Assembly: GCF_002549775.1 (NCBI RefSeq)
Contig: NZ_NMTR01000021.1
Span: 868,001 to 932,000 of the forward strand
Origin: Faecalibacterium langellae
Lineage (GTDB): Bacteria > Bacillota > Clostridia > Oscillospirales > Ruminococcaceae
Direction of reading: 5' to 3'
Length of the DNA: 64,000 bases
Below the pieces are notes generated by a model that saw only the letters and a list, made by a program, of their open reading frames with translations, was not told the DNA's origin and made no database searches. A program made the position numbers and the translations under genes. This document shows positions 21,372-29,101 of the stretch, piece after piece. Numbering within the stretch: the first letter of the stretch is position 1; each line of letters begins with the position of its first letter.

Positions 21372-22625
21372 TTACTCGTACAGCGGGAAGTCGTGGGTCA
21401 GCTTCAGCACACGGTCGCTGATCTCGTCCTTCTTCTCGTCGTAGTGCCAGATGCAGTCCGCGATGCAGTCCGCAATGACCTTCATCTCCGCGGGGCCCAT
21501 ACCGCGGGTGGTAACGGCCGGGGTGCCCAGACGCACGCCGGAGGTGACGAACGGGCTGCGGGTCTCACCGGGCACGGTGTTCTTGTTGGCGGTGATATGC
21601 ACGCTGTCCAGACGGGCTTCCAGCTCCTTGCCGGTGCACTCCTCGTCGCGCAGGTCGATCAGCATCAGGTGATTGTCGGTGCCGCCGGACACCAGCTTGA
21701 CGCCCCGGGCCTGCAGCTCAGCGGCCATAGCCTGTGCGTTCTCAACGATCTTGCGGGCATATTCCTTGAACTCGGGCTTGAGCGCCTCGCCGAAGCAGAC
21801 GGCCTTTGCCGCGATGACGTGCTCCAGCGGGCCGCCCTGGGTGCCGGGGAACACCGCGGAGTTGATGCGCTTTGCGATGACCGGGTTGTTGGTCAGGATC
21901 AGGCCGCCGCGGGGGCCGCGCAGAGTCTTGTGGGTGGTGGTGGTCACCACATCGGCATAGGGCACGGGGCTCTGGTGCTGGCCGCCTGCCACCAGACCGG
22001 CGATATGGGCCATATCCACCATCAGGTAGGCGCCGTAGCCGTGGGCGATCTCGGCGATCTTCTCAAAGTCGATGGCGCGGGGGTAAGCGGATGCACCGGC
22101 CACGATCAGCTTGGGGCGCACCTTCTTCACCTGCTTTTCCAGCTCCACATAGTCGATGACGCCGTCGGCATTGACGCCGTAGGAGACGAAGTGGTAGTTC
22201 TTGCCGGACATGTTCACCGGAGAACCGTGGGTCAGATGGCCGCCCTGAGAAAGGTCCATGCCCATGACGGTATCGCCCAGGTCCAGCAGTGCAAAGTAGA
22301 CGGCCAGGTTGGCCTGTGCGCCGGAGTGGGGCTGCACATTGGCATACTTGGCACCGAACAGCTTGCAGGCGCGCTGGATGGCGATGTTCTCCACCTCGTC
22401 CACATAGACGCAGCCGCCGTAGTAGCGCTTGCCGGGCAGGCCCTCGGCATACTTGTTGGTCAGGATGCTGCCCATCGCGGCCATGACAGCCGGAGAGACG
22501 ATGTTCTCGCTGGCAATCAGCTCAATGTTCTGGCGCTGACGGGTCAGCTCACGGTCCATGGCCGCGCCCAGTTCCGGGTCCACGCTGTTGACCAGGCCGA
22601 TGGTATCCATCATTTCGTTGTACAT
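21372..22625 (-). CDS. glyA: Serine hydroxymethyltransferase
   Basis: GlyA moves the serine side-chain carbon to tetrahydrofolate, giving glycine and methylene-THF, the main feed for the folate genes divergent from it. The 417-residue PLP enzyme has the N-terminal [12 protein letters not shown] block, the PLP-lysine motif [14 protein letters not shown] and the C-terminal [12 protein letters not shown]. The ATG at 22625 follows AGAGGGG; the frame is open 14 codons further but without a better site. Confidence 0.97.
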
Positions 22626-22708
22626 TCTAATTACCCCTCTCTTGATACAGACAGATCGTCTTTTCAAGCACCCGGCTCCCGCGCACTGAACCGCAATTGC
22701 TTTCTCTT

Positions 22709-22786: not shown

Positions 22787-22863
22787 ACTTGTATAAAAAT
22801 GCAGTGTCGTTTTTGTATATTTTTCAAGGTTGCCCGGTCAGAGATGAAGCGAGGTGTTCTCCA

Positions 22864-23436
22864 GTGACGGTCAGTGAAGAAAAGCAGGCCCAACGCAAAG
22901 CAGGCCGCGCCGCCCGCAAGGCCCTTTCGCCCGAGGTGCGGGCCGCCGCCAATGCCGCCCTGTGCGCGAACCTCTGGCAGCTGGATGCCGTGCAGAAGGC
23001 CCGCACCATCTTATTGTATGCGGCCTTCGGGGCCGAAGCCGACCTTGCCTCCTTTGCTGAGGAAGCACTGCGGCAGGGCAAAGTGCTCGCCTACCCGGTG
23101 TGCGGCGAGGGATATTCGCTCACGGCCGCCGTGCCCGGCCCGGACGGCTGGGAGACGGGGCTTTACGGCATCCGCACGCCGGTGCCGGAGCGGTCGGAGC
23201 TGCTGGAACCGGAAGCGCTGGACCTTGTGCTCGTGCCCTGCACCGCCTTTGACGCGGACTGCCGCCGGGTGGGCATGGGCAAGGGCTACTACGATCGGTA
23301 TCTGCCCCGCTGCAAAAACGCGGCGAAGATCGGCATTGCATTTGAGGTGCAGCGGGTGGACCGCGCCGCCGTGGACGAGCACGACCAGCGGCTGGACGCC
23401 TATGCAACAGAGAGGGGTATCTACACATGGAAATGA
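22864..23436 (+). CDS. 5-formyltetrahydrofolate cyclo-ligase
   Basis: The enzyme uses ATP to turn 5-formyl-THF, a dead-end product made as a side reaction of GlyA, back into methenyl-THF. The protein is 190 residues from a GTG start that follows GAGGTG by seven bases. The N-terminal basic stretch (RKAGRAARKAL), central TRTPVPERSELLEP-like block and the C-terminal GMGKGYYDRYL motif are typical. The last ten bases overlap the next gene, so the two are translationally linked. The placement next to glyA and folD fits its role. Confidence 0.92.
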   Translation: MTVSEEKQAQRKAGRAARKALSPEVRAAANAALCANLWQLDAVQKARTILLYAAFGAEADLASFAEEALRQGKVLAYPVCGEGYSLTAAVPGPDGWETGLYGIRTPVPERSELLEPEALDLVLVPCTAFDADCRRVGMGKGYYDRYLPRCKNAAKIGIAFEVQRVDRAAVDEHDQRLDAYATERGIYTWK

Positions 23437-24062
23437 TGGAACGAACTTGCAGCCAGTTCCTGGCAGAGCTGGCCAGCAAAGCACCCACACCGGGCGGCGG
23501 CGGAACAGCCGCGCTGGTGGGCGCGGCAGGCGTCGCCCTGGGCAACATGGTGGGCAATCTGACCACCGGCAAAAAGAAGTATGCCGCCGTGGAGGAAAAG
23601 ATCCAGGCCCTGAACGCCAAGGCCGAGACCCTGCGCAAAGAGCTGGAAGCACTGGTGCAGGAAGATGCGGAGGCCTTTGCGCCGCTGGCCGCCGCCTACG
23701 GCCTGCCGAAGGACACGCCGGAACAGGCCGCCGACAAAGAGCGCGTTATGGAAACAGCTTTGACTCGGGCCGCGCTCGTCCCGATCAAGATCATGCAGAA
23801 ATGCCTGGAGGGCATCACGCTTGCATATTCCTACGCTGTTGATGGCAGTACAATGGCCATCTCGGATGCAGGCTGTGCCGCAGTGTTGTGCAAAGCCGCC
23901 CTACAGGCTGCAAGCCTGAATGTTTTTGTCAACACAAAGTTGATGACCAATCGGGAATTTGCCACAGCGTTGGAACACACAGCAGAGCAGTTACTGGACG
24001 CAGGGACTTCTTATGCAGACGAAGCGTTCCATTATGTCAACGAAAAACTCCGCAGTAAATAA
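23427..24062 (+). CDS. Cyclodeaminase/cyclohydrolase family protein (FchA-like methenyl-THF cyclohydrolase)
   Basis: The family includes formimido-THF cyclodeaminase and the methenyl-THF cyclohydrolase FchA of acetogens. The 211-residue, mostly helical protein has the signature PTPGGGGTAALVGAAGVALGNMV near residue 20. It overlaps the upstream cyclo-ligase gene by ten bases and is followed 13 bases on by folD. Because that FolD lacks the lysine needed for the cyclohydrolase step, the most economical role here is methenyl-THF to formyl-THF conversion. From about base 23750 the codons become clearly less GC-rich at third positions than in the first half and in the neighbours, suggesting a mosaic gene. 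No histidine-degradation genes are near. Confidence 0.85.
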   Translation: MEMMERTCSQFLAELASKAPTPGGGGTAALVGAAGVALGNMVGNLTTGKKKYAAVEEKIQALNAKAETLRKELEALVQEDAEAFAPLAAAYGLPKDTPEQAADKERVMETALTRAALVPIKIMQKCLEGITLAYSYAVDGSTMAISDAGCAAVLCKAALQAASLNVFVNTKLMTNREFATALEHTAEQLLDAGTSYADEAFHYVNEKLRSK

Positions 24063-24075
24063 AGGAGAAACGATT

Positions 24076-24930
24076 ATGGCAACGATTTTGAAGGGCGCGC
24101 CGGTGGTGGCCGCCATGAACGAACGCAACGCCGCATTGTGCGAACAGCTCAAGGCAAAGGGCGTGGTGCCCACGCTGGCTGTGGTGCGTGTGGGCGAGCG
24201 TGAAGACGACCTCTCCTATGAGCGCGGCGTCATGACCCGCTGCGGCAAGGTGGGCGTGGAGGTGAAGCAGTTCCTGCTGCCCGCCGACGCTTCGCAGGAC
24301 GACCTGCTGAAGGTCATCGCTGAAGTGAACGCCGATGACGCCATCCACGGGTGCCTTTTGTTCCGCCCGCTGCCCAAGCAGTTCGACGACCGCACCGTGC
24401 GCGCGGCCCTTGCCCCGGAAAAGGACATCGACGGCATCACCGACGGTTCGCTGGCCGGTGTGTTCACCAACACCGACCTCGGCTATGCGCCCTGCACGGC
24501 ACAGGCGTGTCTCGAAATTTTGAAGTATTATAGCGTTCCCCTCTCCGGCAAGCGCGCCGTGGTTGTGGGCCGCAGCCTGGTGGTGGGCAAGCCTGCCGCC
24601 ATGATGCTGGACCGCGAGAATGCCACCGTGACCCTCTGCAACTCCCGCACCCAGAACCTGCCCGCCCTCTGCCGGGAAGCGGACGTGGTGGTGGTGGCCA
24701 TGGGCAAGATGGGCGCGGTGGGTGCCGACTGCCTGCGCAAAGGCCAGACCGTCGTGGATGTGGGCATCCATGTCAACGAGGAGGGCAAGCTCTGCGGTGA
24801 CGTAAAGTTTGCCGAAGCGGAGCCGGTGGTGGACGCCATCACCCCGGTGCCCGGCGGTGTGGGCACCGTGACCACCTCGGTGCTGGTGGGCCATGTGGTG
24901 CAGGCCGCTGCGAAAAAGGCCGGGCTGTAA
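24076..24930 (+). CDS. folD: Methylene-THF dehydrogenase (FolD), probably without cyclohydrolase activity
   Basis: FolD normally carries out two steps, methylene-THF to methenyl-THF with NADP, and hydrolysis to 10-formyl-THF. The 284-residue protein has the family blocks LLFRPLP, PEKDIDGITDG, the dinucleotide motif VVGRSLVVGKPAAMML and the C-terminal TPVPGGVGTVTTSVL. In the active-site YxxxK motif the tyrosine is kept (SYERGVMTRC) but the lysine position is valine. That lysine is essential for the cyclohydrolase step in characterised enzymes. The ATG follows AAGGAG by eight bases. It ends the cyclo-ligase, FchA-like, folD operon. Confidence 0.92.
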   Translation: MATILKGAPVVAAMNERNAALCEQLKAKGVVPTLAVVRVGEREDDLSYERGVMTRCGKVGVEVKQFLLPADASQDDLLKVIAEVNADDAIHGCLLFRPLPKQFDDRTVRAALAPEKDIDGITDGSLAGVFTNTDLGYAPCTAQACLEILKYYSVPLSGKRAVVVGRSLVVGKPAAMMLDRENATVTLCNSRTQNLPALCREADVVVVAMGKMGAVGADCLRKGQTVVDVGIHVNEEGKLCGDVKFAEAEPVVDAITPVPGGVGTVTTSVLVGHVVQAAAKKAGL

Positions 24931-27144: not shown

Positions 27145-27910
27145 TTATGCGCGGATGGCGTCCTTCATGCTTTTCACATAGGCACCAATGTGTTCCGGGG
27201 CGTCGGTGCCGTACTGTTCCAGCAGCTTGATGATGGCCGAACCCACGATGGCACCATCGGCGATGCCGGCCATCGTGGTGGCCTGCTCCGGGGTGGAGAT
27301 GCCAAAACCGATGGCGCAGGGCGTTTTGGTATTCTCCCGCACCACCTTCACGATGGACGCAAGGTCGGTTTTGATCTCGCTGCGGGTGCCGGTGACACCC
27401 AGACTGGACACGATGTACAAAAAGCCCTCGGCCTCTTTGGCGATCATGGCAATGCGGTTTTCGGAGGTGGGCGCGATCATCGAGATGAGGTCTACGCCAT
27501 ATTTGCGGCAGATGGGCAGAAATTCGTCCTTTTCCTCATAGGGCAGGTCGGGCAAAATCAGGCCGTCGATGCCGATCTCTGCACAGGTGGAGATGAACTT
27601 CTCGGCCCCGTAGGAGAACACCACGTTTGCGTAGGTCATGAACACCATGGGGATGGTCACATCCCTGCGCACCTCGCGGACGAAATCGAATACCTTATCG
27701 GTAGTGGTGCCTGCCTTCAGCGCCCGGATGTTCGCGCCCTGAATGACCGGGCCCTCGGCGGTGGGGTCGGAGAAGGGGATGCCCAGCTCAATGAGGTCGG
27801 CACCGTTTGCCGCCATGGCACGGACGGCTGCGGCGGTGGTGGCCAGATCGGGGTCACCGCAGGTGATGAACGGGATAAATGCCTTGCCACCAGCAAAGGC
27901 CTTTGCAATG

Positions 27911-27918
<8 letters not shown>
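27145..27918 (-). CDS. trpA: Tryptophan synthase alpha chain
   Basis: TrpA cleaves indole-glycerol phosphate to indole and glyceraldehyde 3-phosphate and channels indole to TrpB. The 257-residue TIM barrel shows [11 protein letters not shown], the catalytic-glutamate block [19 protein letters not shown], a second catalytic aspartate in [13 protein letters not shown], and [10 protein letters not shown]. The ATG at 27918 overlaps the trpB end by eight bases, with GGGAGG inside trpB, so translation is coupled. It is the last gene of the operon. Confidence 0.96.

Positions 27919-29101
<1,183 letters not shown>

Follow-up and report, generated by a model that had tools for sequence, protein, structure and literature searches.

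Loss of Two Active-Site Residues in FolD and an Adjoining FchA-Type Gene Point to a Probable Split of Dehydrogenase and Cyclohydrolase in Faecalibacterium and Other Bacillota

Introduction

The yeast enzyme Mtd1, a relative of FolD, is a monofunctional NAD-dependent methylene-tetrahydrofolate (methylene-THF) dehydrogenase without cyclohydrolase activity. The FolD of Clostridium perfringens is likewise reported to be a dehydrogenase only and to need the separate protein FchA (Aluri et al. 2016, Microbiology 162:145-155). The introduction of PMC7219735, with Aluri 2016 as its source, also ascribes a separate FchA to some microbes. In the catalytic scheme described for FolD, a lysine acts as the general acid/base, a glutamine positions this lysine and an aspartate positions the pterin (PMC3338484). 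The E. coli variant K54N has no detectable cyclohydrolase activity and about 19% of its dehydrogenase activity left, and Q98H is estimated by the authors to keep about 1% of cyclohydrolase activity (PMC5688156).

Here, we compare these systems with a FolD gene of Faecalibacterium langellae and follow its diagnostic residues, and the presence of an FchA-type partner, through samples of genomes at the levels of order, class and phylum.

Results and Discussion

The FolD of the Window Lacks Two Cyclohydrolase-Site Residues

The window, by which we mean the whole 64,000-nucleotide stretch analyzed (contig NZ_NMTR01000021.1, positions 868,001 to 932,000), encodes on its plus strand (24076-24930) a 284-residue member of the FolD superfamily, in which PF00763 (102.6 bits) and PF02882 (180.8 bits) both score above their curated cut-offs and which we predict to be a dehydrogenase-only methylene-THF dehydrogenase. 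When aligned with four solved FolDs, the protein retains the tyrosine of the YxxxK motif (Tyr48) and carries a valine (Val52, codon gtc, 24229-24231) at the position of the lysine (Lys54 in E. coli), the degenerate motif reading YERGV (24217-24231, plus strand) just as the first-pass annotation of this DNA had described it. The same annotation had held this lysine to be needed for the cyclohydrolase step, and the undetectable cyclohydrolase of E. coli K54N agrees (PMC5688156). A second residue of the cyclohydrolase site, one more than had been reported, is also gone: Phe96 (codon ttc, 24361-24363, plus strand) stands where the four solved FolDs have glutamine (Gln98 in E. coli numbering). With Val52 and Phe96, the protein has neither of the two residues that mark a bifunctional FolD (the YxxxK lysine and Gln98), and it has the features of a monofunctional methylene-THF dehydrogenase, namely Tyr48, Asp119 (24430-24432, plus strand; the substrate-positioning Asp121 in E. 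coli numbering) and the Rossmann NAD(P) domain of PF02882. Models that match the protein bear names calling FolD bifunctional; among the best 25 of 30 matching models, no NCBIfam model of bifunctional FolD reaches its cut-off.

Lysine and glutamine are each absent from these sites in all 81 loci compared (the window's own and 80 relatives from other genome records), which excludes a sequencing accident. Two further columns, window positions 233 and 264 (Arg234 and Pro265 by numbering offset rather than by direct alignment to the E. coli protein), are conserved in 92% and 97% of FolDs that keep the lysine (K+) and in 3% and 4% of those that have lost it (K-less).

The Upstream Gene and a Proposed Division of Labor

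Directly upstream of folD, on the same strand (23427-24062), lies a gene for a 211-residue protein, a putative methenyl-THF cyclohydrolase of the FchA type; its placement by the first-pass annotation in the cyclodeaminase/cyclohydrolase family is borne out by the FTCD_C domain that characterizes FchA (PF04961, 212.3 bits). The gene ends 13 nt before the folD start, with AGGAG in the gap, and its own start is overlapped by 10 nt by the preceding gene for 5-formyl-THF cyclo-ligase (MTHFS; 22789-23436, plus strand; PF01812, 122.5 bits, with TIGR02727 above its cut-off). The fchA and folD pair is probably co-transcribed. The product of 5-formyl-THF cyclo-ligase is also methenyl-THF. The divergent neighbor encodes serine hydroxymethyltransferase GlyA (21372-22667, minus strand; PF00464, 557 bits), and the order GlyA (minus), MTHFS, FchA and FolD (all plus) is found in 9 of the 80 related loci, some of which have short flanks. 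Genes for the alpha and beta subunits of tryptophan synthase, read from the translations, occupy the minus strand at 27145-29101 of the window. The genome as a whole gave one match each for FTCD_C, Fhs and FolD.

We hypothesize that the two-step FolD reaction is divided here over an operon-encoded pair, as the first-pass annotation had proposed, and, from the residue losses and the co-occurrence described below, we regard this reading as very probable. The FolD of the window, its cyclohydrolase presumably lost, would interconvert 5,10-methylene-THF and 5,10-methenyl-THF as a dehydrogenase only, FchA, with its FTCD_C fold, would convert methenyl-THF to 10-formyl-THF and back, and the pair, together with Fhs, would join C1 units from serine and glycine, formate, and purine or formyl-Met synthesis.

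K-less FolDs Occur in Genomes with FTCD_C

The class sample comprises 196 genomes (completeness of at least 90% requested), with FTCD_C above the cut-off in 70 and a FolD match in 185. Residues were read in the best FolD of each of these 185 genomes and in the second copies of G017 and G195; the set omits a duplicate locus (L124, in G155) and weak second FolD matches in G155 and G061. It divides into 119 copies with lysine, glutamine and aspartate, 67 K-less copies and a single broken copy (L222/L325, in G195) that was assigned to neither group. All 67 K-less FolDs belong to genomes with FTCD_C, and 117 of the 119 K+Q+ copies to genomes from which it is absent. The exceptions are G062, in which the neighbors of FTCD_C are, by eye, cysteine-synthase-like and ABC-transport genes, and G017 (family f8), which carries both FolD types. 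FTCD_C is also present in G085 and G169, in which the class search found no FolD match. The partner adjoins the K-less FolD on the same strand in 34 of the 67 genomes, lying upstream in 33 of these, and is non-adjacent in the other 33. Six FolDs of family f38 (L243, L244, L248, L250, L253 and L273) have Lys54 replaced by glutamine and Gln98 kept; their genomes have FTCD_C, non-adjacent to FolD.

Fhs bears on a different reading of the pair, according to which a K-less FolD serves chiefly in reduction, with formate as the starting point (through Fhs, FchA and FolD), in the style of the methyl branch of the Wood-Ljungdahl pathway, rather than providing 10-formyl-THF from serine. The presence of Fhs in the genome speaks for such a flux, as do at least 12 of the 34 adjacent pairs (compared by eye), in which Fhs and FTCD_C are less than 1 kb apart. 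Against it, Fhs is above the cut-off in 183 of the 196 class genomes, a near-universality because of which it does not track the split and was rejected as its marker, and the neighbors of FchA in the window are MTHFS before it and GlyA nearby, with no Fhs. We consider a mainly reductive role unlikely, while allowing it an appreciable share of the probability; it concerns direction alone and can hold together with the division of labor between FolD and FchA.

The order sample (147 genomes, 25 with FTCD_C and 139 with FolD) contains 21 FolDs that are K-less by residue, all in FTCD_C genomes; the other 118 consist of 39 read by residue, all K+Q+, and 79 called K+ by their low score against the window FolD alone. 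Two genomes combine a K+ FolD with FTCD_C (G255 and G339), and in both, FTCD_C adjoins a formiminotransferase gene, with urocanase also near in G255, which points to histidine breakdown. The order search found FTCD_C and no FolD in G268 and G312, the FTCD_C of the latter being linked to the formiminotransferase domain FTCD_N.

The distribution of the two FolD types is patchy, both being present in 12 families (f1, f2, f4, f5, f8, f16, f28, f37, f39, f53, f70 and f76), within which FTCD_C tracks the K-less FolD (hand-compiled from the class and order samples) with the exception of G339 (f5, histidine-linked FTCD_C) and G017 (f8, two FolD types). Within f1, the family of the window, FTCD_C is found in 5/5 K-less genomes versus 0/8 K+ genomes. 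Against the pairing, the sole FTCD_C of G340 is of the histidine-linked type, although in this genome the contig ends 167 bases away from FolD.

The 80 related loci, the best of 140 similarity candidates, were picked for likeness to the window FolD and hence are not an independent sample. FchA lies upstream on the same strand in 66 of them (gaps of up to 787 bases), and the remaining 14 all come from genomes with FTCD_C elsewhere. By title, 20 of the 80 belong to Treponema or other Spirochaetes (for example L017), four to Coriobacteria/Eggerthellaceae and one to Synergistaceae; nearly all are metagenome bins, and the spirochaete titles among the nearest FolD loci suggest transfer between phyla. 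Co-occurrence of K-less FolDs with the partner family had been set beforehand as a check, and it was complete in the class sample (67/67), the order sample (21/21) and the related loci (80/80); a body of K-less FolD genomes without the partner, which would count against the split, did not appear in the samples read.

A Second Residue Signature and the Limits of the Rule

The phylum sample comprises 199 genomes, 116 with FTCD_C and 197 with FolD. Residues were read in the 29 best-scoring FolDs besides that of the window and in 30 loci of 25 selected genomes. The top 25 scorers are K-less and all come from FTCD_C genomes. Among the matches listed, 24 further neighboring pairs of FolD and FTCD_C were recognized by eye, and none of the 14 that were read by residue keeps both lysine and glutamine. 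Twelve of these 14, from other Bacillota classes (L382, L384-L388, L390-L392 and L395-L397), keep the lysine and have Gln98 replaced by glutamate (YAxxK with xELPLP), with FchA downstream, a combination that we term type B; their relatives L389 and L393, the other two, have lost both residues. We term type A the FolDs in which K54 is replaced by A, V, I, L or M and Q98 mostly by F, L or M, and in which FchA, when adjacent, is usually upstream. The FolDs of L402 and L403, both in FTCD_C genomes, have the motifs YRGQV and LPLRPFP, and FTCD_C adjoins FolD in L403.

The converse association is looser. FTCD_C stands alongside an intact K+Q+ FolD in G444, G376, G366 and G410 of the phylum sample, and these genomes, together with G062, G017, G255 and G339, show that FTCD_C is not diagnostic alone. 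G439 and G362 have K-less FolD copies and no FTCD_C, each of these genomes also having an intact K+Q+ copy; these are the sole such cases among the FolDs read, multi-copy families such as f97 lying outside the read set. In the K-less paralogs of G439 (L398/L408) and G362 (L399/L407), DVEG replaces DVDG in the Asp121 region. Among the FolDs read, the rule that survives is that a sole readable FolD lacking the K/Q pair was not found in any genome without FTCD_C, and that a genome may have FTCD_C without having a K-less FolD.

The Partner as Cyclohydrolase or Cyclodeaminase

The FTCD_C fold is shared with cyclodeaminases, and a further explanation must therefore be weighed, in which FolD retains enough cyclohydrolase through another residue and the FTCD_C protein is a formimino-THF cyclodeaminase of histidine or purine breakdown. 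Named cyclodeaminases (1tt9 and 1o5h) are among the structural matches of the window protein, ranking behind its best PDB match, the methenyl-THF cyclohydrolase 7vg4 (E 5.4e-39). The NCBIfam FchA equivalog NF045657 scores 196.7 bits on the window protein, under its cut-off of 275, and does not separate it from two histidine-linked FTCD_Cs that score 176 and 189. The FTCD_C tree does separate them, placing the five FTCD_N-linked proteins read in a clade of their own (support 99) and the window FchA within a set of eight FolD-linked rows (support 99). Formiminotransferase (FTCD_N), whose presence in the genome would mark a formimino-THF cyclodeaminase, has no match in the window's own genome, which is 99.99% complete by the tool's figure; with Fhs present and formiminotransferase absent, a role in the histidine pathway is unlikely, and for this genome we rejected it on the absence of FTCD_N. 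In the class sample, FTCD_N is absent from 41 of the 67 K-less genomes and present in 26, so FTCD_C may have two roles in the latter. The viability of E. coli K54N without cyclohydrolase, for which spontaneous hydrolysis was invoked (PMC5688156), also speaks for the cyclodeaminase explanation. Set against the loss of both catalytic residues from the window FolD, the missing FTCD_N and the want of any K/Q-less sole FolD without FTCD_C among those read, the cyclodeaminase explanation seems to us very improbable.

That the window FolD is instead decaying or paralogous, with the true bifunctional enzyme elsewhere in the genome, has a precedent in the K-less extra copies that G439 and G362 hold beside an intact FolD, and is scarcely credible here, the gene being the single FolD match of a genome 99.99% complete (by which a second FolD was ruled out) and its product 85-94% identical to those of the seven nearest related loci, all titled Faecalibacterium. 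We accordingly retain the split between a dehydrogenase-only FolD and FchA as the preferred reading.

Probable Repeated Replacement of Bifunctional FolD

In a FolD tree of the class set built with the motif columns removed, one change explains the distribution of K and non-K sequences, and the six K-to-Q FolDs of f38 branch first, as if the lysine had been lost before Gln98; their position shifts once other classes are added. The wider tree (107 rows, with class rows sampled in part and 12 long-branch rows outside the sampling) requires three changes between K+Q+ FolDs and the rest when the paralogs are excluded. In it, type B and its two derived members form a clade (support 100/96), the full type-A set is weakly supported (76/60), and a single origin of all FchA-partnered FolDs is not rejected by the AU test (p 0.391).

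A tree of 167 K-less FolDs requires three placements for the five members of f1, with G340 on a long branch. From these placements we infer that bifunctional FolD was replaced horizontally in f1, probably more than once, and the pair of the window may itself have arrived in this way. G195, in which an intact K-less FolD is accompanied by a K+ copy that an in-frame stop interrupts (loci L324 and L325), is a possible transition in which replacement is seemingly under way.

Taken more broadly, FchA in Bacillota may have taken over the cyclohydrolase function from FolD by way of two or more chemically distinct lesions (types A and B), type-A genes moving horizontally and replacing bifunctional FolD, and gut bacteria with type A being insensitive to carolacton. 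We advance this combined proposal tentatively, with its chances a little short of even.

Implications for Inhibitors and Metabolic Models

Faecalibacterium is known as one of the main producers of butyrate in the human gut. Carolacton binds FolD via K54, and the dehydrogenase of E. coli K54N is insensitive to it (PMC5688156); with this anchor gone, FolD inhibitors resembling carolacton are predicted to have no effect on gut bacteria of type A, which would be intrinsically insensitive. The prediction draws on the loss of Lys54 and on the rarity of another contact, Pro265 (numbered by offset), which 4% of K-less FolDs keep. If the prediction holds, split versus bifunctional FolD would mark naturally insensitive versus sensitive commensals, and a test of K54 and Q98 would allow FolDs beyond the reach of K54-dependent inhibitors to be predicted. 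Combined with the presence of FchA, the same test would correct metabolic models and predict dependence on FchA, and the paired switch in 12 families would offer natural replicates for the dismantling of a bifunctional enzyme.

Comparison with Known Systems

We found no literature joining Faecalibacterium, FolD and methenyltetrahydrofolate cyclohydrolase, and no comparison of K-less FolD with FchA across genomes in titles and abstracts, a coverage that takes in few subscription journals. The laboratory counterparts, E. coli K54N and Q98H, were obtained as carolacton-resistant variants and concern the same two residues as the window FolD, with cyclohydrolase abolished or nearly so and some dehydrogenase persisting; unlike the window FolD, they are single changes selected in the laboratory and have no partner enzyme (PMC5688156). 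In acetogens, FchA and FolD are encoded in one Wood-Ljungdahl cluster (fhs-fchA-folD; PMC10213532, PMC12003927, PMC3633928), FolD being called a methylene-THF dehydrogenase in PMC10213532 and bifunctional in PMC12003927 and PMC3633928, and the fchA product a cyclodeaminase in PMC3633928, with no residue test in the passages cited; the window pair, in contrast, does not lie beside a Wood-Ljungdahl cluster. Yeast Mtd1 is eukaryotic and very distant from the window FolD (PDB 1edz, E 2.9e-8).

The trio reported for C. perfringens, which consists of a FolD annotated as bifunctional, a separate FchA and Fhs, is complete in the window's own genome (FolD, FTCD_C and Fhs). The likeness is one of described function and gene set, and a difference is that the pair in the window is preceded by an MTHFS gene. 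The principle of a separated FolD and FchA is thus already known from other anaerobes, C. perfringens being the reported case, and the possible novelty here lies in the two-residue rule, in the type-B signature and in the inferred recurrent replacement of bifunctional FolD.
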